NCBI GenBank assembly: GCA_016278725.1
Contig: JADQBG010000009.1
Span: 1-64,000, forward strand
DNA length: 64,000 bases
Direction of reading: 5' to 3'
DNA from: Actinomycetota bacterium
Lineage (GTDB): Bacteria > Actinomycetota > Thermoleophilia > RBG-16-64-13
The translations under genes and the position numbers were made by a program. This document shows, in pieces, positions 24,015 through 41,981 of this stretch. Positions within the stretch are counted from its first letter, which is position 1, and each line of letters starts with the position of its first letter. The notes under the pieces were generated by a model. That model was not told the DNA's origin, ran no database searches, and saw nothing but the letters and a program-made list of their open reading frames with translations.

Positions 24015-24614
24015 TTAGCTTGCAGGCTCCTTCTCAGCCATCTCTTCAGGAGGTGCCTCGCCCTCACTCGGGAGGGCGACTTGCACCCGGACCAAGATCC
24101 TGCCTTGCGGCGTATCCACGAAAGCAGCCTCGGACCACCGGTCGGTGGTCAATGCGCGGAGGTCGCGCACGACCTGCGCTGCAAGGTCCCCGTAGCGCGC
24201 CGTCAGGTCCCGAACTGCTTCTAGATCGGCTTTGCGGTGAGCGGTCCCCGCCGCCGTGGGTCTCTCCACCGGCAGTTTCTGCTGCTTCGAGAGCGGGAGA
24301 GCCCGGCGAAGAAGATCCACTCCGAGAGCCAGGACCCCTCGATAGAGGGAGTGCGCCGTGTCACTCGCTAGCGGCTCGAGCTGCGAACCGAGAGGACGTA
24401 ATCCGGCTCCGCCTGTTGCATCCGTTCGAGCACGGTTTGGTCTTTCAGCGATGTGCAGCGCAGGATCGGTGCTTCGGGATCGAGCGCCCGCGACATTCTC
24501 GTGAGCGAAATCCGCCGGGACCATAATCAAATGTGGCTTGAGTCTCTGTTCGCGGAGCACCACCAAGGCTTGGACTGCGATGGCGCGGTTACAGGCGAGG
24601 ATAAGGCTTGTCAT
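24015..24614 (-). pseudogene. Formyltransferase relic lacking its catalytic core
   Basis: The 5' part reads LILACNRAIAVQALVVLREQ, like the N terminus of sugar/methionyl-tRNA formyltransferases. The similarity then jumps frame: APILRCTSLKDQTVLERMQQ and EPDYVLSVRSS. After about 24380 it resumes in the first frame with SDTAHSLYRGVLALGVDLL and HRKADLEAVRDL, typical of the C-terminal half. The middle segment, which should hold the HPSLLP loop and catalytic Asn/His/Asp, is missing. The family forms N-formyl sugars from formyl-THF. Its 5' end overlaps the PglC-type gene by 26 bases, so it was the last gene of that operon. Confidence 0.72.
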
Positions 24615-25236
24615 GGGATTGGGGCTCTCTCGTCTTGTTCAGCTTCTGCCCGGTGAAATAGTCGACGGTTGCCCGCCCTGGCTGGGCCACGCCGTTGGCC
24701 GTGACAACTCGCAAGACGGTCAACAGGAGGATGCGCAGGTCCAGGAGAAGCGACTGGTTGTCGACGTACCAGGCATCGAGCTCAAACCGCCGCTCCCAGG
24801 GTAGGGCATTCCGTCCTTCGACCTGTGCCAGTCCGGTAATCCCCGGTCGGGCCTCATGCCTGCGAAACTGCTCCCGGTCGTAAAGAGGCAGATACCGAAG
24901 CAGCAGGGGCCGCGGGCCCACCAAGCTCATGTCGCCCCGCAGCACGTTCCACAACTCGGGCAGCTCATCTAAGCTGGTGGCCCGCAGCGCACGGCCTAGC
25001 CGCGTCAGGCGCTCGTGGTCTTCAATCTGCTTGCCGTCCGGCAACTTGGTCTCGTGCATAGTGCGGAACTTGTAGAGTGCGAAAGGTCGTGCCTCCAGTC
25101 CGGGCCGGAGCTGGCGGAAAATCACGGGCGGCCCCAGGAAGAGGCGGACCATCAAAGCAACGGCGAGCATGATGGGTGCCGCGGCAAAGAGCAGAGTGCT
25201 CGACACGACAAGGTCGAAGCCCCGCTTCACGCTCAC
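24589..25236 (-). CDS. PglC-type (monotopic) phosphoglycosyltransferase
   Basis: A 215-residue small initiating transferase. One N-terminal membrane hairpin (GFDLVVSSTLLFAAAPIMLA) precedes the catalytic domain. Motifs: YKFRTMHETK, TSLDELPELWNVLRGDMS with the Asp-Glu catalytic dyad, VGPRPLLLRYLPLY and RPGITGLAQVEGRN. Unlike the large enzyme at 2939, it lacks the upstream membrane bundle and matches PglC length. It would load an (often N-acetylated, diamino) sugar phosphate onto undecaprenyl phosphate. GTG start behind GAGGAGAGG; it overlaps the GT4 stop by four bases. Confidence 0.92.
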   Translation of the reverse strand: MSVKRGFDLVVSSTLLFAAAPIMLAVALMVRLFLGPPVIFRQLRPGLEARPFALYKFRTMHETKLPDGKQIEDHERLTRLGRALRATSLDELPELWNVLRGDMSLVGPRPLLLRYLPLYDREQFRRHEARPGITGLAQVEGRNALPWERRFELDAWYVDNQSLLLDLRILLLTVLRVVTANGVAQPGRATVDYFTGQKLNKTREPQSHDKPYPRL

Positions 25237-26396
25237 TTAGTGCACCTCTCCTCGCGTAAGAGCAATTTGCGGTGGGCGAGGGTGGCGTAGGCTCGGAGGA
25301 TCCGTTGGATCACGTCCTGCTCGTTGAAGGCGCTCAGGGCGCGGATGCGTCCCTTCCTTCCCATCTCCACTGCGCCGGCCGGGTTCGAAACGAGCCTGTG
25401 CAGGGCAGATGCCAGAGCAGCAGCGTCCCGAGGGGGCACGAGGTAGCCGGTCACTCCCTCGACGACCTCCTCCCGAGGGCCACGGACGTCGGTTGCGACC
25501 ACCGGGCGTTCGGCGAACATTGCCTCGATGATCGAGCGGGGGAGGCCCTCACGCCAGGAGGGAAGGCAGAAGGCATCCCCGGCCACCAGGTAGGGATGCG
25601 GGTTGTCCTGAAAACCGGTGGCGTGCAGTCTGCCCCGGGCAGTCAATTCGTCCAGGACATCCTGTGATTCTAGCGGGTCACGGTCGCTGGCCAGCGTTTC
25701 GCCCACCAGAATCAGGTGTACGTCTTTTGCGTCATCGAGCAGCTCCCGTACTGCGCTCAGCAGTTCATCCGCTCCCTTCTCCTGCACCAACCGCCCCACG
25801 AAGCAGACAGCAAATGCTTGGGCCGGGATGCCGAGCTCCTCTCGTATCTGGCCGCGGAGCTCCGCTGAGAACTTATACCGCTCTGGATCGGTACCATTCC
25901 CGAGATAGCGGATGTGGGGGAAGAGGCCGATCCCCTGGCCGTGATTGGTCTTTACGTCTTCGGCGCTTTGAGAGAAGACGAGGTCGGTCTGTTTCGAGAG
26001 TAGCCACTCCAGACCACGCCAGGCAAACCGCTGATGGCGTGGCATGTTGTCGTGGAAGTAGAACCCGTGAGCCGTGTAGATGACCACGGGGACGGGGGAC
26101 ATCGCGGCGGCTACTCGCGCCAAGGCAGCTGCGACGGGCGTGTGCACGTGAAGAATGTCGATTCTTTCCTTCCAGAACAGACGCACTAGTTGAACGACCA
26201 CGAGGAAGTGGTCCGCGGCGATAGCGCGACGGACGAAAGGCACCTCGAAGACCGCGATCCCCATATCACGCACACCAGAGAGGTGTGAGCCGGGGCCGCA
26301 AATGACCGAGACTCGGTAGCCTGCGCTTTGGGCCGCGCGAAGTTGCGGCAAGAGCAAGAAACGGGGCGTCATGGCGCTCGCGGCTACGTGGGCCAC
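25233..26396 (-). CDS. GT4-family glycosyltransferase
   Basis: A 387-residue GT-B enzyme of the kind that often adds the second sugar after a PglC-type enzyme. N-terminal HVAASAMTPRFLLLPQL and HVHTPVAAALARVAA, then YTAHGFYFHD. The donor domain shows FVGRLVQEKGADELL, SWREGLPRSIIEAMFAERPV and DVRGPREEV. GTG 26396 is the only start in frame near the family N terminus, but a good AAGGAG about 26 bases further up suggests the true start may be non-standard. It heads a three-gene minus-strand operon (GT4, PglC-type, formyltransferase relic). Confidence 0.88.
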   Translation of the reverse strand: MAHVAASAMTPRFLLLPQLRAAQSAGYRVSVICGPGSHLSGVRDMGIAVFEVPFVRRAIAADHFLVVVQLVRLFWKERIDILHVHTPVAAALARVAAAMSPVPVVIYTAHGFYFHDNMPRHQRFAWRGLEWLLSKQTDLVFSQSAEDVKTNHGQGIGLFPHIRYLGNGTDPERYKFSAELRGQIREELGIPAQAFAVCFVGRLVQEKGADELLSAVRELLDDAKDVHLILVGETLASDRDPLESQDVLDELTARGRLHATGFQDNPHPYLVAGDAFCLPSWREGLPRSIIEAMFAERPVVATDVRGPREEVVEGVTGYLVPPRDAAALASALHRLVSNPAGAVEMGRKGRIRALSAFNEQDVIQRILRAYATLAHRKLLLREERCTK

Positions 26397-26586: not shown

Positions 26587-28095
26587 ATGCCTTACCCATC
26601 ACCTTACTCGCGCCGGCCGCCCCGTCTCATCACCGCGCTCCTGCTGTCCGTCCGGCGGAGGTTGTTTCTGTTCTTGGTGCTTGCGGCTTTTGTCGCGTTA
26701 TTGTTCACCGCCCTCACCCTCCTTTTTCCCGCCCGATACCGGGCGCAGGCACTGCTTGCCTACCAGCCTGGACGGCTGGCCGACGTCTCTGAGCTCCTCC
26801 TTTCCCTAGAGCCTCGGCACACGCCCGGCGATCGGCTGCAGATAGACGCTCTGCGACTCCGCGGTCGTCCTCTTGTCGAGGCGGCAATCGAAGAAGGCGG
26901 CTTCGACATAACTCCAGAAGAGTTGAGAGATCACTTGGTCGTTGAGGAGGATGCCTGGGCTGGGCTGGTAGTCGTAGAGGTCGAGTCGCATAGATCTGAT
27001 GAGGCGGCTGCTATCGCCAATACCTTGTCAGGGCAGTTGATTGAACTGCGGGGCCGCGAAATCAAAGAGACATTCGAAGAGGCCGCCGCCACCATCACCG
27101 AGCTGCGCGAGCGGTATGACTCATCGGCGATTCTTCAACATCTGCCCATTCCAGCCAACACTCCCGAGATCGAGACTTTCATGGCTGGATTGAGCTCTGA
27201 TTACGTGCTGGCCGAGCCGGCGGTGCCGCCAGACGGTCCAGTCTTCCCTCGTACGGCTCTCAGTCTCTCGCTCGGACTCGCCCTGGGGTTTATGTTCTCA
27301 CTGGGCGTAGTCTTTCACCGGGATTTACCCGGAGGGCGGCTGGACCGGGCCTCGGACCTGCGTCGTGCGCTCGGTGACTCACTGCCCGTCTTCGAATTGC
27401 CCCGGCCGCCAGGGGCGGGGGAGTCGAAGGACTTCCTGGGTTTTCGCCACGATCCTGCTGCTCTCGACAGATATCGCTATCTGCGCGAGGAACTGCGGCT
27501 TCTGGGGCTCGGGGAACTGGTCCGCGTTCTCGGGGTTGTCTCGGCGGCACCCTCTGCCCCCCGTTCGTTCGTCGCCGCCCACCTGGCTCTGGTGCTTGCC
27601 CTACGTGAGCAAAGGGTGCTGCTCGTCGAGGCCGATCTCCGTGGCGGCATCCTGCCTCAGGTCTTCGCGGTTTCGCCCAGAGAGGATCGGTTGGACGTCC
27701 TCCAGGGCTCCGCCTCATTAGGCCCTGCGGTTTCCCGGGTGAACCTGGCACATCTTCTTCCCGTCGGACTATCCGAGGGGGAGGAGACGGAGTCTCTGAA
27801 TATCGGAACTCTCGACCTACTGCGGCTGGGCCCGTCTGACCATCTTCGGCTCCAGGCTGGACCTAAAAAGTTCGGACGCCTGATGTCGCAAGTTCGCTCA
27901 TCGTACGATCTCGTGCTAGTCGACCTACCGCCTATTCTCGTTAGCGGGGAAGCTGAGCCCTTTCTGGGGCAGATGGGCGATATCGTCCTGGTGGCGGAAA
28001 AGGAAGATTCGCTCTACCGTGACGTCGCCAGGTCCTCAGTGCTGGTTTCTCGCTTTGGGGTCCCTCTACTCGCCGGATTGTTCTTGGAAGGATAG
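26587..28095 (+). CDS. Wzz-type chain-length protein with a degenerate BY-kinase domain
   Basis: A 502-residue protein. Two membrane segments (about residues 25-50 and 222-243) bracket a Wzz-type extracytoplasmic domain with the closing PAVPPDGPVFPRTALSLSL motif. The cytoplasmic part has the fold of bacterial tyrosine kinases (VLGVVSAAPSAPRSFVAAHL, LLVEADLRGGILP, LVLVDLPPIL). The P-loop lacks the GKS/T lysine, reading APSAPRS, and there is no C-terminal Tyr cluster (it ends AGLFLEG). It therefore probably cannot bind ATP normally. It may set chain length structurally or regulate the intact kinase encoded at 41247-41981. ATG start; divergent from the PglC operon. Confidence 0.85.
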   Translation: MPYPSPYSRRPPRLITALLLSVRRRLFLFLVLAAFVALLFTALTLLFPARYRAQALLAYQPGRLADVSELLLSLEPRHTPGDRLQIDALRLRGRPLVEAAIEEGGFDITPEELRDHLVVEEDAWAGLVVVEVESHRSDEAAAIANTLSGQLIELRGREIKETFEEAAATITELRERYDSSAILQHLPIPANTPEIETFMAGLSSDYVLAEPAVPPDGPVFPRTALSLSLGLALGFMFSLGVVFHRDLPGGRLDRASDLRRALGDSLPVFELPRPPGAGESKDFLGFRHDPAALDRYRYLREELRLLGLGELVRVLGVVSAAPSAPRSFVAAHLALVLALREQRVLLVEADLRGGILPQVFAVSPREDRLDVLQGSASLGPAVSRVNLAHLLPVGLSEGEETESLNIGTLDLLRLGPSDHLRLQAGPKKFGRLMSQVRSSYDLVLVDLPPILVSGEAEPFLGQMGDIVLVAEKEDSLYRDVARSSVLVSRFGVPLLAGLFLEG

Positions 28096-28211: not shown

Positions 28212-29621
28212 GTGAGTCCTCAGGACAGCAGCACGGGCGAGGGGTTGACTGGTCTACGAGGGTGGTTCGGCCGCCGGGATCGCCTATTGATTTTCGCTCT
28301 AGGCTTGGCGCTCGGAATCGCAGCCGGTGTCGCACTTGCTTCGGAGGGCGCCACGCGCATTTGGATCGACCCTGATTCGACGGGCTCGGCCACGCCCGCT
28401 GATACCACTAGCTTATCCGCCGCCAGCGAGCAATCCGGCCCTGAGGACACGCACGACGGCGTTTTGGGCGATCTCCCTTCCGAAGGCGCAGGACTTGACG
28501 GACCTGAAGGTACCCCCTCCGAGAATGCGAATGTGGAAGCCACGGTCGTTAACGTCCGGGATCATGGGGCCAGCGGTGATGGCAAAAGTAATGACCGCAA
28601 ATCGATTCAGGCGGCTCTCGATTCTGCTGGCGCCGGAGACACAGTCTACCTTCCGGCCGGTGTGTACTCAGTCGACCGGGCTCCCTCCGAAGCGTGGGCA
28701 ATTCGAGTGCCGTCCGGCATAACCCTTAGGGGCGAGGGGGGTGAGAGTGTTATCCGATTAGCCGCCGACCAGGGAGAATGGGTAAGGGTATTGACGGTCG
28801 CCACCTCTGAAGACGTAGCCATAGAGCAATTGACAGTAGACGGCAATGCGCAAGGACAAGAGGTGGAGTCCGAGCAGCGACATGGCATATTCGTTGACCG
28901 CTCTCAGCATGTGACAGTCCGGGATGTGGTTGTCCGGTATACCACCGGCGACGGTATCTACTTTCACGGCCGCTCCTCTGGAGTGGTCGAAGGCTCTAGG
29001 GCATATGGCGGCGAGGGTGCACGCGTTGCATTCAATTTCCAGGGGGCGGAAGATGCTGTGTTCCATGGCAATTATGCTGAAGCCTATGACGTGGGCTACA
29101 AGGCGGAGGTTAACGAGAACAGCCCGAGCGTGCGAAAAGTGCGGGTTGTCCAGAATGTGTCCCGCGAGACTCCTAACGGGATTGCCATCAACGGGCATTC
29201 CTCCGGCAGCTTTGTGTTTGACGTTGTAATTGAGGGAAACGATTTCGAGTTTACAAGCGATGATGGATTTTGGATCAAAGACGCTAGAGGGTTGGTGATA
29301 CGGGATAACGTATTCAGGAGGCCATCCGGCGGAACTGGTTTCTACATTAGAGGCAACGTGCAGGAAACCGTGATTGAATCCAATGTGGTGCCTGGGGCGG
29401 AAACCGCAGTAGCCATAAATGAGTATGTGGGCTTCAGTCGAGATCTCACCATTCGGAACAATCGCTTCCCGGACGCCGAAGTAGGGCTTGAAGTTCTGGT
29501 AGACGGATCGGTTGGGAGTGTGGTCTTCACCGGAAACCAACTCGCTCCGGGTGCGCGGGTCGTCTTGAATCCGGGTTTTGTCAAACCCCCTCTAGAAATC
29601 CAGGGAAACTGGGTGGGGTAG
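28212..29621 (+). CDS. Membrane-anchored beta-helix (pectate-lyase-3-like) protein
   Basis: A 469-residue protein starting at GTG behind GAGGGAG. An N-terminal membrane segment (LLIFALGLALGIAAGVALA) without a clear cleavage site suggests a type II anchor. A Ser/Thr/Pro-rich spacer leads to the beta-helix: RDHGASGDGKSNDRKSIQAA, then YTTGDGIYFHGRSSG, VAFNFQGAEDAVFHGNYAEA and later rungs. It is closely related in layout to the helix domains at 18695 and 42001 and follows the Wzz-like gene by 116 bases. The family includes lyases, hydrolases and epimerases; no catalytic triad could be assigned, so its action on the local glycan is inferred. Confidence 0.82.
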   Translation: MSPQDSSTGEGLTGLRGWFGRRDRLLIFALGLALGIAAGVALASEGATRIWIDPDSTGSATPADTTSLSAASEQSGPEDTHDGVLGDLPSEGAGLDGPEGTPSENANVEATVVNVRDHGASGDGKSNDRKSIQAALDSAGAGDTVYLPAGVYSVDRAPSEAWAIRVPSGITLRGEGGESVIRLAADQGEWVRVLTVATSEDVAIEQLTVDGNAQGQEVESEQRHGIFVDRSQHVTVRDVVVRYTTGDGIYFHGRSSGVVEGSRAYGGEGARVAFNFQGAEDAVFHGNYAEAYDVGYKAEVNENSPSVRKVRVVQNVSRETPNGIAINGHSSGSFVFDVVIEGNDFEFTSDDGFWIKDARGLVIRDNVFRRPSGGTGFYIRGNVQETVIESNVVPGAETAVAINEYVGFSRDLTIRNNRFPDAEVGLEVLVDGSVGSVVFTGNQLAPGARVVLNPGFVKPPLEIQGNWVG

Positions 29622-29867: not shown

Positions 29868-30830
29868 CTAGTTCTGTGCTGGGGAACTCCGCACCGACTT
29901 CTCCAAGAACTCGTGGTGGGAAAGAAGTTGTCGGCCCGCGAGCAGGAGGTCATACCCCATCCGCGGGGCGTCCCGGACCCCGTATCGGGCGAGAACCTCA
30001 AGAATAAGCTCGTACCGGGTCATCGGAGAAAGCTGCGAGTCGAGCAGCAGACTGCTGAAACCCTGGGTGAGTCGCCACGTCCGCAGGGTCAATCTCCGCC
30101 GATTGTCCGGGCTCCACCACAAGCGGTTGCGGAGAACCCTTTCGTTGAACGACTGGCGGCTGCAGAAGAGGGGCTCTGGAATCTCAACGATCCTCCCAAG
30201 GAGACTCAGTTCGCCAAGAAGAATCCTGTCCGACCCGGTGTCGCGTCCGAGCAGTTTTGTCTGGGCGAGAAGACGGCTCGGAATGAGGCCGAAAAAGATG
30301 AAAGGGTACTTGGTGCGCCACAAGATCTGGCGAAAGCGGGTTTCAGGTCGGGCCGAGGCGAGCCCAGAAGGGTACCCAAACGTTCCCAGCAATTCGTTGT
30401 TCTCGGAATACAGGCGTGCCCTGGACTGACACAGAACGATCGTAGGGTCTTTATCCAGGGTCTCCACACACCTCTCGAGGTAGTCTGAGGCGCACCAGTC
30501 GTCGTGAGCCGCCCACTTGAAGTACTCCCCACGAGCTAAATCGAAGACCCTATTGAAGTTGGCGCTGGCACCGCGATTGGTGTTCCATCGGAAGTATCGG
30601 ACCCGTTCATCCTGCGCTGCGAACTGGCGGCAGATGCTCTCTGTCTGGTCCGTCGACGCGTTGTCGGAGATGATCAGCTCAAAGTCATAGAACGACTGGG
30701 TGAGGAAAGACTCGATTGCACAACCGATGAGCTGGCCGCCATTGCGAACGGGCAGCCCTACGCTCACCCTAGGATGCTTGTGCCGTGATTGTCTACCGTC
30801 CATCACCAGTAGAGGCAAGACGTCCTCCAT
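29868..30830 (-). CDS. GT2-family glycosyltransferase
   Basis: A 320-residue GT-A enzyme with VSVGLPVRNGGQLIGCAIES at the N terminus, SDNASTDQTESICRQF, NRGASANFNRVFDLARGEYF and the metal-binding AAHDDWCASDYLE (a DxD variant, HDD). It is the final gene of the minus-strand operon that starts at rfbF, three bases after the ligase stop. Cytoplasmic, no membrane span. It probably extends the repeat unit carrying the methyltransferase-modified sugar; donor unknown. A start slightly downstream (MDGRQSRHKH) is possible because the ribosome site at 30830 is weak. Confidence 0.85.
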   Translation of the reverse strand: MEDVLPLLVMDGRQSRHKHPRVSVGLPVRNGGQLIGCAIESFLTQSFYDFELIISDNASTDQTESICRQFAAQDERVRYFRWNTNRGASANFNRVFDLARGEYFKWAAHDDWCASDYLERCVETLDKDPTIVLCQSRARLYSENNELLGTFGYPSGLASARPETRFRQILWRTKYPFIFFGLIPSRLLAQTKLLGRDTGSDRILLGELSLLGRIVEIPEPLFCSRQSFNERVLRNRLWWSPDNRRRLTLRTWRLTQGFSSLLLDSQLSPMTRYELILEVLARYGVRDAPRMGYDLLLAGRQLLSHHEFLEKSVRSSPAQN

Positions 30831-30833
30831 GCC

Positions 30834-32180
30834 CTAGTATCTGGTCTCGGAACCCGGCTCCCGCCAGAATTCTATTTGCCCAAACGCCGCTGATCCTGCC
30901 TTAGATGATTCCATTCCCTGCGGTTGCTCCGTCAATTGCCCTTCTTCGCTAAATGCAGCCATCATCCAGGCGGAAAAGACGAAGAACCAAAACAGTGGCT
31001 GTCGAAGGGTGTTGTGGAAGGCGGAAAACGCAAGCAAGGAAACCACCAGGGCTGTAAGAACCCAGCGTCGCTCCGAGAATAGGGTCAGCAGGATTTGCGT
31101 TGACAAAACAATTGCGAGGACCGCGGCCAGGAGACCTCCTGCCATCGCCAGGTCGATAAGGGAGTTGTGGGACTCCATTCCTTCCAGTGGGCCATGGACT
31201 CCGGAATGCGACCCGGCACCCAATCCGATAAGCGGCGAGAGTAGCACTGCACGAAGTCCGTTCTCCATGAGCGTAACCCGGACATCCCCCTGGTCCTGCT
31301 GCGCGTAGACCTGGTCGAGCCACGGGCGTAATACGAGCGCCAAGATGAGGACAAGCGCTAGGAGTAGGACGAGCTTGTAGAGCAGTCGGCCGATGAGAGG
31401 GATGCGTATGCGAGGAGTCCCGGCGAGGACGGCCAAGAAAACCAGTCCCACACCCCAGCCAATTATAAGGGCGTCGCTCTTGGTTGAGTAGCCCAACAAG
31501 CCTGCCGGAACGATAAGCAGCAGCGAGAATGCCTTCGTACGGAGGGGTACTGCGCTCCTTAGGAAAAAGACAATCAGGAAGGGGACCGGGGCCAAGAGCA
31601 GGCCGAGCTGATTAGGGTTGTTCGAGATCCCCTGAAACCGCGAGGTTGAGGAGAAGAATTCGCCAAGATCCGGGCCTGAGGTGATTAGGTAAACGAGCGG
31701 GAAGAGGACAGCCAGCCAGAGAAGCCACTTCCACGTCTTCATCAGAAAGGCCGGCGTCGGATGCGACCAGGCGAGGGAAATGCTAAAAGCCGCAGAAAGA
31801 AGCATAGCGGTGAACGTATGGAAAGAAGCGCTCTGATCAAGGCCACGTATATAGGAATACGCGGAGCCGGCGAGCATCAGGAAGATCAGAAAGTACCAGA
31901 ATAGGGTTATCCAGCGGGCTACTCTTCGCTCCTCCGGCTGCTCAGGCAATTCCCGCCTCGAGAGAAGCGTTGCGGCCATCCAGAAGACCAGCATCAGTTC
32001 CCCCGGCCCCACCGGAACTGAGGATGCCCGCAGCGAGGTGGAGATGGTCAGGGCCAAGGCGGCCGCAAGCCAAAGTGGGGAGATCTGGGCCCATCCGGGC
32101 GCGCGGAGACGGGGTGCCAGCTCGGCGGAGAAGGCGCGAGCAGGTTGACTACCGGTCGCGAGGCTTCTGGCCCGGGCCAC
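30834..32180 (-). CDS. O-antigen ligase / Wzy-like polymerase
   Basis: A 448-residue protein with about 11-12 membrane spans. The extracytoplasmic-loop motif region GAGSHSGVHGPLEGMESHNS, followed by LIDLAMAGGLLAAVL, is characteristic of the Wzy_C/O-antigen-ligase family (conserved His and NS). In a Gram-positive setting it would act as polymerase or ligase for the glycan on the outer face. The start is set at GTG 32180, which overlaps the Wzx-GT2 stop by one base and has AAGGGGGG upstream; the open frame extends 36 bases further without support. It is the only Wzy candidate in the window. Confidence 0.82.
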   Translation of the reverse strand: MARARSLATGSQPARAFSAELAPRLRAPGWAQISPLWLAAALALTISTSLRASSVPVGPGELMLVFWMAATLLSRRELPEQPEERRVARWITLFWYFLIFLMLAGSAYSYIRGLDQSASFHTFTAMLLSAAFSISLAWSHPTPAFLMKTWKWLLWLAVLFPLVYLITSGPDLGEFFSSTSRFQGISNNPNQLGLLLAPVPFLIVFFLRSAVPLRTKAFSLLLIVPAGLLGYSTKSDALIIGWGVGLVFLAVLAGTPRIRIPLIGRLLYKLVLLLALVLILALVLRPWLDQVYAQQDQGDVRVTLMENGLRAVLLSPLIGLGAGSHSGVHGPLEGMESHNSLIDLAMAGGLLAAVLAIVLSTQILLTLFSERRWVLTALVVSLLAFSAFHNTLRQPLFWFFVFSAWMMAAFSEEGQLTEQPQGMESSKAGSAAFGQIEFWREPGSETRY

Positions 32181-34474
32181 TAGCCCCCCTTTTCCCGTCC
32201 AGCGCCTCGGAGCCACAGCCGAAGTCCTCGGGGAAGGAGCCCGTAGCCGAGACGTGCGCCTGCCAGCGGCGCTACCAGTAACGCCGGGAGACCGTAGACT
32301 TCTCGGCCGGCCCGCAGTTGAGTGCGGAAAGAATGCTTGACGTAAACGAGCCGCTTAGAGGCTTCGAAGCTCTGGTTGGGATGCAGACGGTGCGCTTGTA
32401 GGGGGAGTTCCAGCCGGCCTATCCTCCATCCGCATCGGGCAAAGCTGATCCAGAGATGGTAGTCCAACTGAGCGGTTTTCGATCGGTCATACCCGCCAAC
32501 CTCAATGTAGGCCCTCCTAAGGATTAGAGCGGTCGAGTGCGAGATCGGGTTGTGCCACAGTAGGCTGTCGGTAACGTCTCTGACCTCCAAGTCAGCCTCA
32601 TCCGGCGAGGAATCTTCTGTGTTATCGGCCAGAACGATCATTGGCCATTGCAGGACCCCGTCTCCCTCGAACAGTCGAGCCTTCGTCGCCACCACTCCAT
32701 ATTCAGGGTAGCGCTGTGCGGCGGCGAGTTGCAACTCCAAACGTCTAGGGTGCGCAGGATCATCCGCATCGATGTTGGCCAACCAGCGCCCGCGACATTC
32801 GTTCGCGGCCAGAACCAACGCTGCACCTCGCCCCAGCCGGCCGGGCTGTAGTAGGCGTAGGCGGCCATCCTCAAAGGATGCGACTATTTCGCTAGTTCGA
32901 TCCGTCGAACCATCATCGACAATTACGAACTCAAAGTCGGTTCTCGTTTGGCCTAGAATGCTCTGGATCGTTTCCCTCACAAAGCGCTCGCCATTGTGGA
33001 CGGTCATGAAGACGGACACCGAGGGCAATGCCGGTGCGGCCGAGTCGGGGCGGGGTGAAGGTCCGGACACCACGCCGCTCATATCCTTGGAGTATCTTTC
33101 GGGCTGCGCCGCAATCGCGCCGCCTTTCCCCCACTGCCGTGAGGGCCCACTTTCGTGCAGCCTCCTAGTGATGTGGACTAAAATCGGTATCAAAAGCAGG
33201 ACTCTAACGCTGACTCCGGCTAACACCGCGAGTGCTGCTCCCACTAGCCCAAGAGGAGGCACCAGGACAAGGCTGGCGACCGCTGTGGTGCCCACAGTAA
33301 CAATCTGGAGTGGGAGCTGGATCCGGAAGTAGCGGGCAGCAGTTAGAGCCGAGCCGAGGAACATCGCGACGAAGCCGAGTCCTTCGGCCCCCATCAGCCA
33401 GACGAAGACGTGGGCCGCCGAGGCATATTCTGGCCCGTAGAAGATGGTGAGGAGTTCTTTCCCAAGCACGGCAACCAGCAACATGCCGGCAACACCCAGG
33501 CCCGCTCCGGTGACGGCGAGCTTGATTACGAGTCGTGTAAAAGCCCGGGCCATTCCTGCGGCGTAGTACTGCCCGAGACGAGGGCTGCTCGAGTAGGTGA
33601 GAGAATTGACAACCATCTTTCCAACCGCAATGAAATAGACCATCGCTCCGAATATGGCCAACATTTCCGGTCCCAAGAAGTAATCGACCGCGTAGCGAGG
33701 GACGTTAGCGTGCAGAGAAGCGAGCATCATCACGACGCCGAGAGGGAGCGCTGTCCAGGCGAGGCGGATTATAGCGCTCCTGTCCCAGCGGGCCTTCAAC
33801 CAGTCTTCGGTCGCCATGGGATCCGTACGGGTGATACGGATAGTATTGGGAATGTCGTATAGGAAGAGCAGGGCAGCCCAGACGGCGATTAGGCCGAGCA
33901 GTCCCCATACGATGCTTCCTGTTAAGTAAACGAGCAGGGCCAGCGCAACCAATGATACGGGCCCCTTGATCATCTTGGCCTTGGCCATTAGGTCGAGACG
34001 CTCGTTCTGTTGCATCAGCCCGTGATAGGCATCGCTGAGGCTCTCGAAGCCCTTGGCTATCCCGACCAGAATGATCACGATCGTCTCGGTTCCGCTGGAG
34101 GTAAGAATGGCTATGCCGACGATTATGAGAAGAGCCACCAGCGTGCTAACGATTCGAAGCGAGAGGTACAACCCAAAGGGACGTTCTCGCGTCGCATCGA
34201 TCGCCTGTATGGAGCGGAGTTGAAGTTGGCTGAGGATGATTATCGGAGCGGTGAGAGAAAGGGCAAGAATGAATTCGCCAACTCGCTGTTGACTCGCGGT
34301 TCGCGCCAGGACGACGAGCCAACCCCACTGGGAGGCCTGGTAGACGACCCCGCCTATGAAGGTCCAGGTGAGATTCGCGCGCAGAGACAAACCGGCGCGG
34401 TTGCGGAAGATCTCGATATCTCCCTCGTCCCGGTCTCCTCTTCGGAGGCGCTCAACTTTACTTGTGGCTTTCAT
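32180..34474 (-). CDS. Fusion of a Wzx-type flippase and a GT2 glycosyltransferase
   Basis: One open frame of 764 residues. Residues ~30-440 are a MOP-superfamily flippase with about 12-14 spans (e.g. WTFIGGVVYQASQWGWLVVL, TYSSSPRLGQYYAAGM). A short linker follows, then from about residue 488 a GT-A domain (SVSVFMTVHNGERFVRETIQ, VDDGSTDRTSEI, ANIDADDPAHPRRLE with the DxD). Both halves look full length. An internal ATG (MSGVVSG, near 33083) with AAGGAT ahead could start the second half separately, but no stop divides them. Fusion would place a glycosyltransferase at the mouth of the flippase. ATG start with GGGGA upstream. Confidence 0.85.
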   Translation of the reverse strand: MKATSKVERLRRGDRDEGDIEIFRNRAGLSLRANLTWTFIGGVVYQASQWGWLVVLARTASQQRVGEFILALSLTAPIIILSQLQLRSIQAIDATRERPFGLYLSLRIVSTLVALLIIVGIAILTSSGTETIVIILVGIAKGFESLSDAYHGLMQQNERLDLMAKAKMIKGPVSLVALALLVYLTGSIVWGLLGLIAVWAALLFLYDIPNTIRITRTDPMATEDWLKARWDRSAIIRLAWTALPLGVVMMLASLHANVPRYAVDYFLGPEMLAIFGAMVYFIAVGKMVVNSLTYSSSPRLGQYYAAGMARAFTRLVIKLAVTGAGLGVAGMLLVAVLGKELLTIFYGPEYASAAHVFVWLMGAEGLGFVAMFLGSALTAARYFRIQLPLQIVTVGTTAVASLVLVPPLGLVGAALAVLAGVSVRVLLLIPILVHITRRLHESGPSRQWGKGGAIAAQPERYSKDMSGVVSGPSPRPDSAAPALPSVSVFMTVHNGERFVRETIQSILGQTRTDFEFVIVDDGSTDRTSEIVASFEDGRLRLLQPGRLGRGAALVLAANECRGRWLANIDADDPAHPRRLELQLAAAQRYPEYGVVATKARLFEGDGVLQWPMIVLADNTEDSSPDEADLEVRDVTDSLLWHNPISHSTALILRRAYIEVGGYDRSKTAQLDYHLWISFARCGWRIGRLELPLQAHRLHPNQSFEASKRLVYVKHSFRTQLRAGREVYGLPALLVAPLAGARLGYGLLPRGLRLWLRGAGREKGG

Positions 34475-34683: not shown

Positions 34684-35910
34684 TCAAAGGGTCAACAGGT
34701 CGGCGGACACGCCACGGGATTCGAGCTCTGCTGCGACCTCCCCCCGGTATATAGGGTTGGCCACGATTACGACGTCCGGTCTCTCGCGCTGCACCGTGTC
34801 GGGGCTTCTAACAGGTAAGGCGGAGAGAGGAAGATAGCGCTCGTGCTTCTCGGGATTTAAGTCCACGAGGTAAGCGATGGCCCCGGCTGCCCCGGTCAGG
34901 CAGGCGAAGGTGTTTCCCTTCGAGCCGGCCCCCCAGACCACCACTTGCCTGTCCGCCTCGCGCCACTCTCGTAGCTTCTCTTTCCACCACGTCAACTGCT
35001 GTTCTGCCCTGGCGGAGAAGCTCTGGGCGAGGCGTTGCAAACCCTCGATCTCTCTGCTGTCCCCTGCTCCGCCCACGGTTGGGATAGGCCGAGCAGACAG
35101 TTCGGTCGGCAGACCGGCGTGGAGATGTAGGTACTGACCGCCGTAAGCAGATGCGGTTTCATCTACCACGAACCCTGCCTGCTGGAAAAGTCGGACCAGG
35201 GAGGGTTCGGTATACAGCGCGAAGTGTTCGTAGATCAGGTCCCAGACATTGCCGCGCTCCAGGATGGACGGCCCACTAGGCACCTCGACGAAGACACCGG
35301 GTTCGCTACCGCTCTCCGCTCCCCTTAGGGCCTGACGAAGCGTTAGGACGAATGCACGCGGATTGTCGACGTGCTCCAGGAGCTGGCGTGAGTACACGAA
35401 ATCCGGTGCGAGCGAACCATGATGCTGAGAGTAGTATTCCCGAACGAAGGCGAGCCTCTCGCCGCTTTCCGGCTTTGGCCCAGAGGGGCCGGCAGGGTCG
35501 ATACCGATACCCTGGTGTACTCCGCGCTGCAGCATGAGAGACAGGAATTCGCCCTTGCCCGCTCCTATCTCGAGGACCTTCTTCCCCTTGAGGCCGTACC
35601 GCCGTATTAGGCTCTCAGCGAGGGCTTCGGCGTACTCGCGAAAACGTTCCGAGAAATGAAGGGAGTTCTCATAACCTTGGTGATAGTCGAGCGGTGAGGA
35701 CTCGAAGGCGGCATTCCAAATCATCCCGCAGTGCGGGCAGAAGACTAGATTGAGTCTCGCACTCTGCGCTTCGAGAGCCTCTCCAGGGGAGTCGAAGAGG
35801 CGGTTTGCCATAAGAGGGACGGGACCGTTCTCAAAGAATACCCGAGTGTCACCCTGGCTACAGACTGGGCAAGGAGGGGCATTGCGAGAACTAGAGGGTG
35901 ACAAGTTCAC
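34684..35910 (-). CDS. Zinc-binding class I methyltransferase (C-methyltransferase family), copy 1
   Basis: A 408-residue protein. An N-terminal Cys-rich module (PPCPVCSQGD...FCPHCG, the putative zinc-binding region) precedes a SAM fold (GKKVLEIGAGKGEFLSLML, ~residues 110-128). A C-terminal domain with VVVWGAGSKGNTFACL and LVDLNPEKHERYLP belongs to the C-methyltransferase C-terminal family. The family includes NovU/TylCIII sugar C-methyltransferases. GTG 35910 has AGGGAG six bases upstream and lies inside the end of copy 2 (20-base overlap). Third of three such genes after rfbF and an SDR. Confidence 0.85.
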   Translation of the reverse strand: MNLSPSSSRNAPPCPVCSQGDTRVFFENGPVPLMANRLFDSPGEALEAQSARLNLVFCPHCGMIWNAAFESSPLDYHQGYENSLHFSERFREYAEALAESLIRRYGLKGKKVLEIGAGKGEFLSLMLQRGVHQGIGIDPAGPSGPKPESGERLAFVREYYSQHHGSLAPDFVYSRQLLEHVDNPRAFVLTLRQALRGAESGSEPGVFVEVPSGPSILERGNVWDLIYEHFALYTEPSLVRLFQQAGFVVDETASAYGGQYLHLHAGLPTELSARPIPTVGGAGDSREIEGLQRLAQSFSARAEQQLTWWKEKLREWREADRQVVVWGAGSKGNTFACLTGAAGAIAYLVDLNPEKHERYLPLSALPVRSPDTVQRERPDVVIVANPIYRGEVAAELESRGVSADLLTL

Positions 35911-37069
35911 ACTCCACTCCCTGCGCATCGATCTCTGCGGCTATCTCATCCACGTAGACCGGGTTCATCGCAATAACGAGGTCGGGCGGGTCTGCCGCCA
36001 GGTGCGCGGGCGGGACCACGGGATGTGCACTTCCCGGGAGAAAGAGACCCTGCTTAAAAGGGTTTATGTCGACCACGTAAGCGAGCTCCTCCCCTAAGCC
36101 GAGCGTTGACACAAATGCTACGGCCTTTGAGCCGCCGCCCCAGAGACCGACTTTGCGCTTCTTCCGGAAGCTGCCATGGAATCGAGCCCGCCAGCTTTCG
36201 ATGGCCTCCTCGACTCGATCGGGGAACGTATCGACCAGCGCCGCCGTCTGCGCGAGATCGTCCTCTAGGGAAAACTGCTGGTCCGTCTTCTCGTCCAGGC
36301 TGGCGACAACGATTACATACTGCCCTTCAAACTCGAGCCGGAGTTCAAATAGACTTGTTTTTGCCCGCCTGAAGAGGCGCGCAAGTGAGCCCGGGGTGAA
36401 GTAGGAGCAGTGTTCGTGGTAGATGTCCCAGAACACTGCGTTGCTCAAAATGCGGAGAGTGTCAGGCACCTCATAGAAGATGACCGCTCCAGGCGTGCGG
36501 GCAGCCGAGATCAACGAAAGCTCGACGAATCGTGCCACAGGCTGGATGTGTTCCAAGGTGTGGCGGCAGGCGACGAGATCCCCGCTCAGGTGGGTGTAGC
36601 GGTGATCGTAGTGAGCGCGGATGACCTCCACTCCTGCTCCTGCATCTGCAGGAACCCTGGCCGGTACTGCGCTGGGGTCAATGCCGATTCCCGCATTGCC
36701 CCCTAGTTCGCAGACCAGTGCTAGAAACTCGGCCTTACCGCAGCCGATCTCGAAGATCTGTTTGCCGCGCAGGTCGTAGCGCTCGACGAGATCCTGGGCG
36801 AGACGATGGGAGAAAGCGTTGAAGGTCGGGGAAAACCCCTGGGTCTCCTCGTACTCCTGCGAATAGTCGAGCAACTCGGGACGGAATAGGGAATTTTGGA
36901 TGAAGCCGCACGCAGGACAGAAGTCGAGTCGTAAGGCCCCATGAGGGAACGCTGAGGCCTCCTTTTGTCCGGGTACAAGGATGCAACTATGAACCGGAAC
37001 ACTGTTCAGTTCATAGAAGGCGACCAGTTCCTGTTCACCGCAGCTGAAACACTTGTCTCGCGCACGCAT
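35891..37069 (-). CDS. Zinc-binding class I methyltransferase, copy 2
   Basis: A 392-residue relative of its two neighbours: CFSCGEQELVAFY and DFCPACGFIQN (zinc ligands), GKQIFEIGCGKAEFLALV (SAM motif I), CRHTLEHIQPVARF, and the C-terminal VGLWGGGSKAVAFVST with VVDINPFKQGLFLPGS. ATG 37069 is preferred because it just precedes the Cys module; a TTG at 37099 overlapping the previous stop is an alternative. Sequence divergence from copies 1 and 3 is large, so these are ancient paralogues with probably different targets. The exact methylation site on the sugar is unknown. Confidence 0.83.
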   Translation of the reverse strand: MRARDKCFSCGEQELVAFYELNSVPVHSCILVPGQKEASAFPHGALRLDFCPACGFIQNSLFRPELLDYSQEYEETQGFSPTFNAFSHRLAQDLVERYDLRGKQIFEIGCGKAEFLALVCELGGNAGIGIDPSAVPARVPADAGAGVEVIRAHYDHRYTHLSGDLVACRHTLEHIQPVARFVELSLISAARTPGAVIFYEVPDTLRILSNAVFWDIYHEHCSYFTPGSLARLFRRAKTSLFELRLEFEGQYVIVVASLDEKTDQQFSLEDDLAQTAALVDTFPDRVEEAIESWRARFHGSFRKKRKVGLWGGGSKAVAFVSTLGLGEELAYVVDINPFKQGLFLPGSAHPVVPPAHLAADPPDLVIAMNPVYVDEIAAEIDAQGVECELVTL

Positions 37070-37091
37070 CCCGGCCGCCGTCGCCCTGAGC

Positions 37092-38345
37092 TCAGACAAT
37101 TTCGATGTCCGGCACCGGGATGATGAACTTCCCTCCGCGCCGCCGGTACTCCTTCTGCTGCTCGAGAATTTCGTCCCTGAAGTTCCAGGTCAGCAGCAGT
37201 ACGTAGTCTGGTTGTTCATCGAGGAGTTTTTCCGGTCCGCAGACCGGAATGCGACCGCCCGGCATGAATCGGCCGTGTTTGTGGAAGTTGCGATCGACTA
37301 CGAACCGAATGATGTCGGCGTCGAGCCCTGTGTAGCCGAGCAGCGTCGCCCCTTTTGCGGCGGCCCCGTAGGCCGCGATCGACCGTCCCTCATCATCAAG
37401 ACGGTGAAGGAGCCCAGTGAGTTCACCCCTCAAGCTATTCACCCGCTCCGCAAACCCCGCGTAAAAACCGGAGTTGATCAATCCCATGTCTGCCTCTTCG
37501 GCGAGCAGACGCTGCACGGAATCATCGCGCGCGGATTGCGGTCCCGCAAACATCCGCAGGGACCCCCCGTGGATTGGAAGTCGTTCTACGCGGTTGAGAT
37601 GAAGACCCTGAGCTCGTAACAGCTGGTCGGCCGAGGTGACAGAGAAGTAGCACTGGTGTTCGTGATAAATCGTGTCGAACTCGCGCTTTTCGAGCAGTTC
37701 GCGCACGTATGGCACTTCTATAACTGCGGTGCCCTCCTCTTTCAGAACGCTGCGGATCAATTTGAGGAATTCGCCTTGATCGGACACGTGGGCCAGCACG
37801 TTGTTGGCGATAACCACATCGGCCTTGCCCCTTTCGGCCACGATTCGTTTGGCAACGTTGCAATCGAAGAAAGTGAGCCAGGTGGGGACGCCCTTATCGA
37901 TTGCGGCTGCCACGGGCCCGGGAGCGGGATCGATACCAAGCACCGGCACTCCCGCACTTTGGAAGAACTGCAGGAGATAACCGTCGTTGCTGGCAATCTC
38001 AAGGACGAGGCTGTCGGCTCCTAGCCGGCGATGCTTGATGAGTGACTCTGCGTTCTCCCGCGAATGCTCGAGAAGGGCCGGGGAAAACGATGAGAAGTAT
38101 GGGTAGGTTTCGCCGAACAGTATCTCGGGCGGAACTCGTTCCCGGATTTGCACCAGCGAGCACGCCGGGCAGAAGAGGAGCGTAAGGGGATATCGCGTCT
38201 CTACTGACTTGAGATCATATTCATCGAGTAGGCCGTCGGCGAGCGGTAGAATGCCCAAGTCCAGAACTTCTTCCAAGGTAGAGAATCCGCAGCCGCGACA
38301 CCGCTCGACCTCCTCGAACTTCCCAAGTCGGTAGGTTAGTTCCAT
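37092..38345 (-). CDS. NovU/TylCIII-type sugar C-methyltransferase, copy 3
   Basis: A 417-residue protein and the most canonical member of the trio. It has CRGCGFSTLEEVLDLGILPL and LLFCPACSLVQIRE (four zinc Cys), LVLEIASNDGYLLQFFQS (SAM motif I, the family's EIxSNDGxxL), TIYHEHQCYFS (catalytic Glu/His region), and the C-terminal AAYGAAAKGATLLGY and VVDRNFHKHGRFMPG. Characterised relatives methylate C3 of a 4-keto-6-deoxy nucleotide sugar. With rfbF adjacent the substrate is probably CDP-linked. It starts one base before the SDR gene ends, so translation is probably coupled. Confidence 0.9.
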   Translation of the reverse strand: MELTYRLGKFEEVERCRGCGFSTLEEVLDLGILPLADGLLDEYDLKSVETRYPLTLLFCPACSLVQIRERVPPEILFGETYPYFSSFSPALLEHSRENAESLIKHRRLGADSLVLEIASNDGYLLQFFQSAGVPVLGIDPAPGPVAAAIDKGVPTWLTFFDCNVAKRIVAERGKADVVIANNVLAHVSDQGEFLKLIRSVLKEEGTAVIEVPYVRELLEKREFDTIYHEHQCYFSVTSADQLLRAQGLHLNRVERLPIHGGSLRMFAGPQSARDDSVQRLLAEEADMGLINSGFYAGFAERVNSLRGELTGLLHRLDDEGRSIAAYGAAAKGATLLGYTGLDADIIRFVVDRNFHKHGRFMPGGRIPVCGPEKLLDEQPDYVLLLTWNFRDEILEQQKEYRRRGGKFIIPVPDIEIV

Positions 38346-39398
38346 TTACGCCTCCGGCCCTGCCGCCAGCTCGGTTGGGACCACCCAGCGCAACGATTCG
38401 TTCAGCCGGTTCTCCACCTGCAGCTGCTTGACGTGCTTGATCCTCAACAGCTTCCCAGTGAAGTCTTCATAGGTCAGGCCTACGTCGACGTAGGCCTTGT
38501 GCAGTTCCTGCACACCTCGTTCGACATTCCAGGTCAATTGGAGTTGCGGGAAGCTATCGGTTAACTTGCTGAAGTTGACACGATAGCAGCGCAGGTCGGG
38601 GCCCGCGCCCTCTGCGTACTTCACCCGGCTGCCTGGAACTACGCCGGCCACGATGTCGGCGACGTCTCTAATCTGATAATTCTCGCCTTGTCTTCCTACA
38701 TTAAAAGCCTGGTTATGAATCTTCTCTCGCGGAGCCTCTGCCATCACAAGGAACGCACGAGCGATATCCTCGATATGAACCAACGGACGCCATGGAGTCC
38801 CGTCACTCTTGATAAGAACATCGCCTTCCGTGTAGGCATGACCGGTCAGGTTATTGACCACCAGATCGGCACGCAGGCGCGGAGAGACTCCATAGGCGGT
38901 AGCGTTGCGTAAGAAAGTGGGGCTGAAGTCGTCGTCGGCGAGTGGAGAGATGTCCCTTTCCGCCAACATCTTCGATACGCCGTAAGGCGTTACCGGATTG
39001 AACCCAGCATCCTCGCTAACGAGGTTCTCGCCGGCGGCTCCGTAGAGACTGCAGGAGGATGAGAAGAGAAAGCGCGTAACCCCGGCCTTCTTAGCTTCGC
39101 GGGCCAGTTGGACCGAACCGAGGTGGTTTACGGAATAGGTCGAAGCGGGGTTCAGATCCCCCACGGGATCGTTCGAGATACCGGCGAGGTGAATGATGGC
39201 GTCAAAGCCGACCAGGTCGCCGGCAACAACATCGCGCACGTCCTTGCTCAGCGCAGGGAGATCCGGTCCCTCCGGGCCGAAGCCGCAGGTAGCGAACAAG
39301 AAGCTGTCCAGCCCCACAACTTCATGGCCGCGTTCTTTGAATAAGGGGACGAGAATTTGGCCGATGTAGCCGTCGTGACCGGTCACCAGAACCTTCAT
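38346..39398 (-). CDS. NAD-dependent nucleotide-sugar epimerase/dehydratase (SDR)
   Basis: A 350-residue extended SDR starting at ATG 39398, behind GGGAGTAA. It has LVTGHDGYIGQILVPLF (cofactor loop), HLAGISNDPVGDLNP, FLFSSSCSLYGAAG and YGVSKMLAERD (Tyr/Lys). It lies four bases after rfbF, so it should act on a CDP-sugar. It lacks overall likeness to RfbG (CDP-glucose 4,6-dehydratase), and the SLYGAAG/NDP pattern belongs to a distinct SDR group often found beside zinc-type C-methyltransferases. Dehydratase, reductase or epimerase action cannot be told apart from sequence. Confidence 0.85.
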   Translation of the reverse strand: MKVLVTGHDGYIGQILVPLFKERGHEVVGLDSFLFATCGFGPEGPDLPALSKDVRDVVAGDLVGFDAIIHLAGISNDPVGDLNPASTYSVNHLGSVQLAREAKKAGVTRFLFSSSCSLYGAAGENLVSEDAGFNPVTPYGVSKMLAERDISPLADDDFSPTFLRNATAYGVSPRLRADLVVNNLTGHAYTEGDVLIKSDGTPWRPLVHIEDIARAFLVMAEAPREKIHNQAFNVGRQGENYQIRDVADIVAGVVPGSRVKYAEGAGPDLRCYRVNFSKLTDSFPQLQLTWNVERGVQELHKAYVDVGLTYEDFTGKLLRIKHVKQLQVENRLNESLRWVVPTELAAGPEA

Positions 39399-39402
39399 TC
39401 GC

Positions 39403-40170
39403 TTACTCCCATGTCTTCCAGGGCGCACCGTTTTCCCACATCTGCTGGAGTATGTACTTCTCCCGCAACGTATCCATACACTGCCAGAATGACTCGTGCC
39501 GGTATGCCATCAATTGACCATCCGCCGCTAGGCGCTCCATGGGCTCCTTCTCCCACTGAGTCTGGTCTCCGTCCACGTATTCCAGCACTTCTGGTTCGAG
39601 TACGAAGAACGCCCCATTGATCCATCCCTCGTCGAGCTGAGGCTTCTCTGTGAAGCTAACTACCTTGTCGCCACTCATCTCGAGCTTTCCGAAGCGGGCG
39701 GGTGGGCGGACGGCGGTTACCGTCGCGAGTTTGCCGTGTGCACGATGGAAGGCGAGCAACCGGCCGAGGTCTATATCGGAGACCCCATCCCCCCAGGTCA
39801 GCATGAACGTTTCGTTTCCGAGATGGGGCGCTAGTCGTTTCACTCGGCCGCCCGTCATCGTGGCTGTGCCCGTTTCGATGAGTCGGATAGTCCAGTTCTC
39901 GCGACCGTGGTTCCCGGCCTCCACGCATCCGTTGCTCAAATCTATGTGGAGGTCACCCCGGTATGCGCAGTAGTCGACAAAGAAGCGCTTGATATATTCG
40001 CCTTTGTAGCCGATGGCGACGACGAACTCGTTAAACCCGTGATGGCTGTAGTGCTTCATGATGTGCCAGAGGATGGGGTATCCCCCAATCTCGACCATTG
40101 GCTTGGGCCGGATCTCGGTTTCTTCGGCAAGGCGGCTACCCATGCCTCCTGCAAGGATCGCGACCTTCAA
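39403..40170 (-). CDS. rfbF: Glucose-1-phosphate cytidylyltransferase
   Basis: A 255-residue enzyme that makes CDP-glucose from CTP and glucose-1-phosphate. Motifs: VAILAGGMGSRLAEETEIRP (residues 3-22), KPMVEIGGYPILWHIMKHYS, YKGEYIKRFFVDY, LTWGDGVSDIDLG and FWQCMDTLREK. The length is typical of RfbF/DdhA. It heads an eight-gene minus-strand operon. The usual next enzyme, RfbG, is not found in the window, so the pathway is either completed elsewhere or uses the adjacent SDR. Divergent from the Wzz gene at 40412 across a 241-base gap containing a small hairpin near 40285-40305. Confidence 0.95.
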   Translation of the reverse strand: MKVAILAGGMGSRLAEETEIRPKPMVEIGGYPILWHIMKHYSHHGFNEFVVAIGYKGEYIKRFFVDYCAYRGDLHIDLSNGCVEAGNHGRENWTIRLIETGTATMTGGRVKRLAPHLGNETFMLTWGDGVSDIDLGRLLAFHRAHGKLATVTAVRPPARFGKLEMSGDKVVSFTEKPQLDEGWINGAFFVLEPEVLEYVDGDQTQWEKEPMERLAADGQLMAYRHESFWQCMDTLREKYILQQMWENGAPWKTWE

Positions 40171-40411: not shown

Positions 40412-41278
40412 TTGTCCTTCCGCCAACATGATGAATCGCCGGGAGCCGACGAGGTGCTCGGTTTGTCTGAATTGCTCGGAGTAATAAAGCGGTGGCTCTG
40501 GCTCATCATTTTGGTTGTTACGCTTACAGGCGCCCTTGCATATGGCGTGTCCCTTCTGCTCCCCGAGAGTTATAGCGCGAGCGCCGACCTCATTTACCGG
40601 ACAGACGATCTTGGGATTGGGCTGGTGGACGCTCCAGACACCAGAGACCACTCAATCGCAGCTGATGCATGGGTTGTGGAGACCCGCGCGCTTGCTGAAC
40701 GTGTCGCTGACAGCTTAGGCAGCGCATGGAGTTCCGAAGAACTGCTGTCCATGATCGAGGTCGAGTCAGACGAAGAGCTTCAGCTGCTCGTCGTCCACGC
40801 GAACGCTGCCAATTCAGGCGAGGCAGCCAGAATCGCCAACGCCTTTGCCGAATCCTTCGTTGAGATCAGGGAAGAAGAGAAGCGGCGAGAAGTTGTTCAG
40901 GCGCGGGAGGTGCTAACTGGGCGACTGGAGAGCCTAACGGAAGAGCAGCGTGCCGGGGAGCGGGGGGGAGCGCTCGAGGCCCGTCTGGAGGAGCTGCTGG
41001 TCCTGGAGGTCCTTCCTCTGGCCGACTACGAACTTGCAGAACCCGCTGTCCCTTCTGACCAACCATCATCGCCACGTCCGGTGCGCAACGGGGCTGTAGG
41101 GATTGCTCTTGGTATCGTGCTCGGGCTTGGAGGGGCATTCGCGCTGGAGTACACGAATCGCCGACTCAATACTCTGGAGTTGGTCGAGGAAGAGCTGGGT
41201 CTTCCCGTGCTGGCCTCGGTTCCCTCCCTCGGGAATTGGGGGGGGGCAACGCAACGGCAGACGGGGGGTTGGTTTTGA
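40412..41278 (+). CDS. Wzz-type chain-length protein (N-terminal part of a split BY-kinase)
   Basis: A 288-residue product with a TTG start and AAGGGGG upstream. The first membrane span (LWLIILVVTLTGALAYGVSL, residues ~30-49) is followed by a Wzz-type extracytoplasmic domain ending in DYELAEPAVPSDQPSSPRPV. A second span (GAVGIALGIVLGLGGAFALE) and the start of a kinase linker (LGLPVLASVPSLGNW) come next. The frame ends at TGA 41276-41278, 30 bases past a run of nine Gs, exactly where the kinase domain should begin. The kinase reads on in the +1 frame. Gram-positive relatives often encode the two parts as separate proteins, but the overlap here looks like a frame break. Confidence 0.82.
   Translation: MSFRQHDESPGADEVLGLSELLGVIKRWLWLIILVVTLTGALAYGVSLLLPESYSASADLIYRTDDLGIGLVDAPDTRDHSIAADAWVVETRALAERVADSLGSAWSSEELLSMIEVESDEELQLLVVHANAANSGEAARIANAFAESFVEIREEEKRREVVQAREVLTGRLESLTEEQRAGERGGALEARLEELLVLEVLPLADYELAEPAVPSDQPSSPRPVRNGAVGIALGIVLGLGGAFALEYTNRRLNTLELVEEELGLPVLASVPSLGNWGGATQRQTGGWF
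41238..41246 (+). repeat. Nine-G homopolymer at the Wzz/kinase junction
   Basis: A G9 run sits where the Wzz frame and the kinase frame must join. With eight Gs the two would form one protein. Such runs are prone to slippage during replication, transcription and sequencing. Confidence 0.85.
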
Positions 41279-41981
41279 GGAGGGCAAGCAGTACCTGCTT
41301 GAGGCCTCTCGCGTCCTTCGGGCAAACCTACAAATCCGAGGATTTGGTCACCTCTCGCCGCTCCTTCTGATAACTAGTGCGTTCCCCGAAGAGGGAAAGA
41401 GCAGCACGGCTGTGAACCTGGCACTCAGTCTGGCACTTTCGGGGGAGCGGACTCTCCTCGTGGATGCCGATCTCCGCAGGCCTCGTCTCCACGAGTATGT
41501 CGGTTTGGCCAACGAAGTTGGTCTCTCTTCTATTCTCGTTGGATCCGCCAGTTGCGCGGATGCTATGCAACCCGTCGATGTGCCCTCTCTTGTGGCCCCG
41601 GAACTTGCCCTCCCGCCCTTGGACTCCGAGGCCTATCGTCACAACCTTGCCGCGATCACTGCTGGCCCTCCAGTCAGCAACCCCACAGAACTCCTGGGAA
41701 GCGAGGCGATGCGGCAGTTGCTTAGACAAGTGCGTAATGCGGCTGACTTCATCATCGTCGACTCACCTCCGATTCTTTTGGTGGGGGACTCCCTCAGCTT
41801 GCTGCCACAGGTGGACTCTGTCGTTCTGACAACTAGAATCAACAAGCTGACCACCAGCGATGCGGCGCGCCTACGACGGGTCATTAGCCTCGCTGATGCC
41901 CCCATCATGGGTGTCGTCTTAACTGATGCCCCTGCCCCTTCAAGAGAACACTACGGCTACTACTACCACCATCGTACGTAA
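41247..41981 (+). CDS. BY-type tyrosine kinase domain (C-terminal part of a split Wzz-kinase)
   Basis: About 244 residues with all hallmarks of a bacterial tyrosine kinase. LEASRVLRANLQ precedes Walker A PEEGKSSTAVNLAL. Walker A' is LLVDADLRRPRLH and Walker B is FIIVDSPPILLVGD. The C-terminal cluster is HYGYYYHH, with four Tyr residues in six positions. It has no ATG/GTG/TTG start near its N terminus, so it depends on the upstream Wzz frame. A GAGGAGGG at the junction could allow internal initiation at a rare CTG. The intact kinase would phosphorylate its own Tyr cluster and control polymer export. The start given here is the frame boundary, not a proven codon. Confidence 0.8.
   Translation, partial: QRNGRRGVGFEEGKQYLLEASRVLRANLQIRGFGHLSPLLLITSAFPEEGKSSTAVNLALSLALSGERTLLVDADLRRPRLHEYVGLANEVGLSSILVGSASCADAMQPVDVPSLVAPELALPPLDSEAYRHNLAAITAGPPVSNPTELLGSEAMRQLLRQVRNAADFIIVDSPPILLVGDSLSLLPQVDSVVLTTRINKLTTSDAARLRRVISLADAPIMGVVLTDAPAPSREHYGYYYHHRT

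Follow-up and report, generated by a model that had tools for sequence, protein, structure and literature searches.

A Wzx-type flippase and a GT2 glycosyltransferase in one reading frame of a putative actinomycetotal exopolysaccharide operon

Does a reading frame that runs from a flippase straight into a glycosyltransferase represent one protein, and if so, how did the two come to be joined? The question is raised by positions 32180–34474 on the reverse strand of a 64,000-nucleotide stretch of DNA from an Actinomycetota bacterium (the window), where a stop-free single frame covers a Wzx-type flippase followed by a GT2 glycosyltransferase. We consider it probable that this frame is a lineage-specific and rather young fusion, in which neighbouring wzx and GT2 genes were joined by the loss of a stop codon to yield one polypeptide; we infer both the stop-loss origin and the translation as one protein.

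Two domains in a single reading frame

The translated open reading frame comprises 764 codons from ATG to stop without interruption, set in a stop-to-stop frame of 801 codons. A GGGGA lies about 6 nt 5' of the flippase ATG, as seen by inspection of the sequence, and a genome search returned the protein as the sole full match within its own genome.

The flippase part (residues ~30–440; 33155–34387, reverse strand) is assigned by its AlphaFold model, by a fold match to WzxE in the PDB and by homologues of 44–50% identity. Built from nine sequences, the model of this half reaches a pLDDT of 84 and a pTM of 0.83. Its helices fit 12 transmembrane segments, the last of which ends near residue 440, and the predicted half thus has one of the helix counts (12 or 14) that characterize the MOP fold. 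The top solved structure is the lipid III flippase WzxE (9g9p, E=2e-7, TM 0.66/0.73), followed in the PDB fold search by MATE and MurJ proteins. At the level of sequence families the half passes no Pfam model's cut-off (MatE, E=0.0039); Polysacc_synt (PF01943) reaches 21.9 bits where 28.2 are required, PF13440 is likewise not matched above its curated threshold, and a PDB sequence search gave no match. A relative with 48% identity (L139) scores 44.1 bits with Polysacc_synt, above the cut-off. By its model, the region is a MOP/Wzx-type flippase, for which translocation of a lipid-linked oligosaccharide is predicted. With the oligosaccharide-lipid flippases of the Wzx/PST group (MOP superfamily; WzxE, PF01943) it shares the 12-helix fold, WzxE as the best solved match, and the setting in a Wzx/Wzy operon. 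Known relatives, however, end soon after helix 12, whereas here the same chain continues into the GT2.

The catalytic part of this GT2 (GT-A; residues ~484–700; 32375–33025, reverse strand) is assigned from Pfam, a motif alignment and the model. PF00535 matches residues 487–655 (E=2.1e-26, 93 bits against a cut-off of 23.3), which makes this half a member of the GT2 family. Aligned with ten GT2 homologues, all of them free-standing proteins, this half shows the DxD as DAD at residues 569–571 and the retained catalytic Asp in LDYHLW; the DxD metal site and the Asp of the ED motif are thus both present. Chondroitin synthase and other GT-A enzymes are its solved relatives, and in NCBIfam the models that come closest are EpsE, TuaG and others for exopolysaccharide transferases. 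The GT-A fold, the DxD and the (E)DYxLW Asp are shared with GT2 exopolysaccharide glycosyltransferases of the EpsE/TuaG/WcaA type (PF00535). Those enzymes, in contrast, are normally separate, soluble or peripheral proteins, while here the GT2 is the C-terminal part of a flippase and scores far below every equivalog cut-off.

Each of the two domain assignments is far beyond chance. The original prediction of a flippase and a GT-A domain with DxD motif in one uninterrupted frame is therefore borne out, with no stop in the frame and both folds predicted with confidence. Both termini of 12-helix Wzx proteins are cytoplasmic, and a sugar-nucleotide-dependent GT2 must sit in the cytoplasm; the C-terminus of the flippase and the GT2 would both lie on this side of the membrane.

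The operon and the joint

In what setting did the joining take place? All genes discussed here lie on the strand of the fusion gene. Upstream are a glucose-1-phosphate cytidylyltransferase (39403–40170; TIGR02623, 363 bits against a cut-off of 300), an NAD-dependent epimerase/dehydratase (38346–39428; PF01370, E=6e-44) and three consecutive open reading frames (34684–38345). The first and third of these (34684–35928 and 37092–38345) are of C-methyltransferase type (PF08484/PF13489 and PF08421, respectively); the middle one (35891–37099) resembles them by eye only and matched no model, and NCBIfam gave no match for any of the three. Downstream, the end of the fusion gene is overlapped by a Wzy-like protein of the O-antigen ligase/polymerase family (30834–32216; PF04932, E=3e-7, 30.7 bits, just under the cut-off of 31.7), and a separate GT2 glycosyltransferase (29868–30830; PF00535, E=1e-28), a GT4 glycosyltransferase (25233–26396; PF13692, E=2e-32) and an initiating sugar-phosphate transferase (24589–25236; PF02397, E=2e-60) follow. 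Judged from these families, the locus would be a Wzx/Wzy-type exopolysaccharide operon that makes a CDP-linked, probably C-methylated sugar. It is tightly packed, and since several of its genes overlap, one lost stop codon is enough to fuse two adjacent genes in the same frame.

Several other features of the window touch on polysaccharide genes, all on the forward strand. Its second polysaccharide gene group contains a second, separate flippase gene (12333–13793; PF01943, E=2e-21) and, after it, a GT2-like gene (13866–14759), so that the same two functions occur there unfused. Adjoining the operon lies a right-handed beta-helix/pectate-lyase-like protein (28212–29621; PF12708, PF13229), which is perhaps polysaccharide-modifying. 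Chain-length-determinant-like and ATPase/BY-kinase-like proteins (40412–41278 and 41103–41981) overlap in different frames. In a genome of the same family (G002; L093, 17644–19275) the chain-length-determinant-like and ATPase parts form one 543-aa protein, and the two-frame arrangement at 40412–41981 reflects a genuine split or else a frameshift. A 502-aa protein without Pfam match (26587–28095), 25% identical to this Wzz/ATPase fusion of G002, is a second, diverged copy.

Between the two halves of the fusion lies a linker of residues ~441–483 (33026–33154). In a full-length model, for which a balanced sequence set served as input, the flippase and the GT2 core have pLDDT values mostly above 90 and residues 445–479 fall below 50, a stretch predicted to be disordered; with a pTM of 0.60, the model gives no reliable information on how the domains are placed relative to each other. 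Another alignment, of 30 sequences in which flippases and GT2s were combined with the fusion, proved misaligned and was set aside. The model thus predicts two folded domains connected by a flexible tether of about 40 residues. Homologous flippases stop soon after helix 12, and in the alignment the PSVSV strand follows within a few residues of the start of the GT2 homologues. The length of the linker roughly equals a flippase tail plus the N-terminal tail of a GT2, as expected for a simple stop loss between neighbours. In random sequence of 62.7% G+C, a run of 42 stop-free codons has a chance of about 30%, so the open linker is by itself weak evidence and does not demonstrate selection for the fusion.

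The presumed old gene boundary is an internal ATG (Met465; 33080–33082, reverse strand). It lies within an ATGA whose TGA would end frame +1, the classic overlap of separate genes, and this lends some weight to a reading in which wzx and GT2 are truly two genes, perhaps overlapping in this way, whose frames were merged by a small assembly or sequencing error near the joint. A GGGGGAAA run upstream of Met465, in the flippase tail near residue 450, points in the same direction, as does the observation that all relatives are split and the fusion is a singleton. For an ATGA-overlapping pair, however, the flippase tail before Met465 would have to read in frame +1, and codon preference over residues 445–464 is best in frame 0 (1.1, compared to -7.0 in frame +1, one stop included, and -0.3 in frame +2). 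This disfavours the simplest slip, although the test is weak within about ten codons of residue 450. The assembly consists of 26 contigs with 99.65% completeness and 0.15% contamination, which also speaks against an error. Altogether, we regard such an artefact as unlikely, though it is the alternative that deserves most attention.

The same ATG bears on a second alternative, in which the joined frame is real but gives two working proteins: a read-through flippase together with a free transferase started at the internal ATG, or two products of linker cleavage. An AAGGA is close by, and the linker is long and disordered. Yet the AAGGA ends only 1 nt upstream of the ATG, too near for good initiation and hence a poor ribosome site, and with no stop in the frame a lone flippase could not arise unless by cleavage. 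The idea that the transferase is also made separately from this ATG, part of the original prediction, is thus poorly supported, and we hold a two-protein outcome to be improbable. A stop-loss fusion read as one polypeptide remains our preferred reading of the joint.

A probable fusion without known siblings

If the fusion arose by stop loss, how far has it spread? The whole protein was used as a query against 149 related genomes. A single flippase relative was found there, in G002 (33% identity), a standalone protein of 475 aa with a Wzy-like reading frame after it; otherwise the matches listed were to the GT2 only, and the sole genome of the same genus gave no match to the flippase half. Six flippases with 44–50% identity came from the phylum sample (G615, G553, G454, G448, G469 and G524). 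All are standalone, in frames of 427–511 aa, and in five of the six the following gene is GT4-like and separate. A split ancestor, with the same GT2 next to the same flippase, was not found; the relatives carry GT4 genes in this place. The closest GT2 relatives found, at about 35–40%, are separate proteins or pieces of other long proteins, none of them preceded by a flippase.

No glycosyltransferase domain is attached to the flippase matches in 399 genomes of the class and 396 of the phylum, for which long frames were inspected or scanned, and neither the classes of the closest relatives nor the order of the own genome added a fusion. A pattern scan of contigs from 84,980 species returned loci that matched via the GT2 end only, and none of the plasmid records spans the two halves. 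Some 1,000 genome searches inside the phylum, together with the pattern scan and the plasmids, have turned up no second flippase–GT2 fusion. We also found no published Wzx–glycosyltransferase fusion in the open literature searched, which does not prove that none exists.

Some candidates were rejected on the way. Among frames of 604–942 aa at flippase matches in class and phylum, those scanned with Pfam are without a glycosyltransferase domain, and the remaining ones contain G+C-rich N-terminal read-in or unrelated tails only, as judged by inspection. Long frames with a GT2 match were discarded as flippase fusions as well, since hardly any helices, or none, are predicted ahead of the GT2. As a separate observation, one flippase-like protein (L110, G364:C1) carries a C-terminal extension that looks helix-turn-helix/sigma-like.

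One of the outcomes named as refuting the prediction was that all close relatives have two separate genes. For the flippase this is largely what is seen, every close relative found being standalone. The fusion is therefore a singleton and no conserved architecture, but in its own genome it still stands. From the sequences compared, it appears to be private to this genome, and with no second genome carrying it, nothing shows that it is maintained. That it belongs to a conserved, selected Wzx–GT2 family with its other members outside the sampled genomes is very improbable: coverage beyond the phylum was that of plasmids and a pattern scan with the sensitivity to detect close relatives, which leaves such a family some room, but no member appeared among the flippase homologues of the class and phylum genomes or in the classes of the closest relatives.

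A proposed path from stop loss to a tethered transferase

What would such a stop-loss fusion do? In a packed Wzx/Wzy operon, the stop codon between wzx and the adjacent GT2 gene would have been lost, and the product would be a 12-helix flippase whose cytoplasmic C-terminus leads over a flexible linker to a GT-A transferase on the inner side of the membrane. This enzyme would add one sugar to the lipid-linked repeat unit, and the flippase would flip the unit across the membrane for use by the Wzy-like protein. The donor is possibly the CDP-derived sugar of the upstream genes. Most likely, as far as the domains allow a prediction, the product flips a lipid-linked repeat unit while carrying its own cytoplasmic transferase.

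Whether proximity has consequences is a different matter, and any idea that adding the last sugar is kinetically coupled to flipping is speculative. A tethered GT2 might add the last, CDP-derived sugar and pass the unit to its own flippase, efficient flipping thereby being confined to finished units; we consider this unlikely. In Rhizobium, two-hybrid contacts with Wzx/Wzy proteins were recorded for the terminal galactosyltransferase PssJ; the authors describe these contacts as ambiguous, and flipping was not blocked when PssJ was lost (PMC7589315). Two Yersinia Wzx proteins tell apart the terminal dideoxyhexose of their unit, and particular sugars have been proposed as a trigger for Wzx (PMC6436433). 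These contacts and this sensing of terminal sugars make a functional coupling conceivable, albeit from other proteins than the fusion.

Parallels for the architecture exist among transferases acting on lipid carriers. In the polyprenyl-phosphate GT-A transferases DPMS and GtrB, a GT-A domain is likewise joined to membrane helices and works on a lipid carrier from the cytoplasmic side (PMC5526996), and in the GT-A/flippase/GT-C series a GT-A and then a flippase act in succession (PMC8035078). In these systems, however, the transferase has anchor helices of its own, the flippase is of GtrA or Wzx type and is given as a protein in its own right, and the lipid bears a single sugar instead of a repeat unit.

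Taken as it is, this single, unreplicated end-to-end joining of two ordinary domains looks like a local fusion rather than a new machine. Still, a natural covalent link between transferase and flippase would lend itself directly to asking whether flipping is influenced by having the sugar-adding enzyme close by, and it bears on how Wzx senses the completion of a repeat unit.
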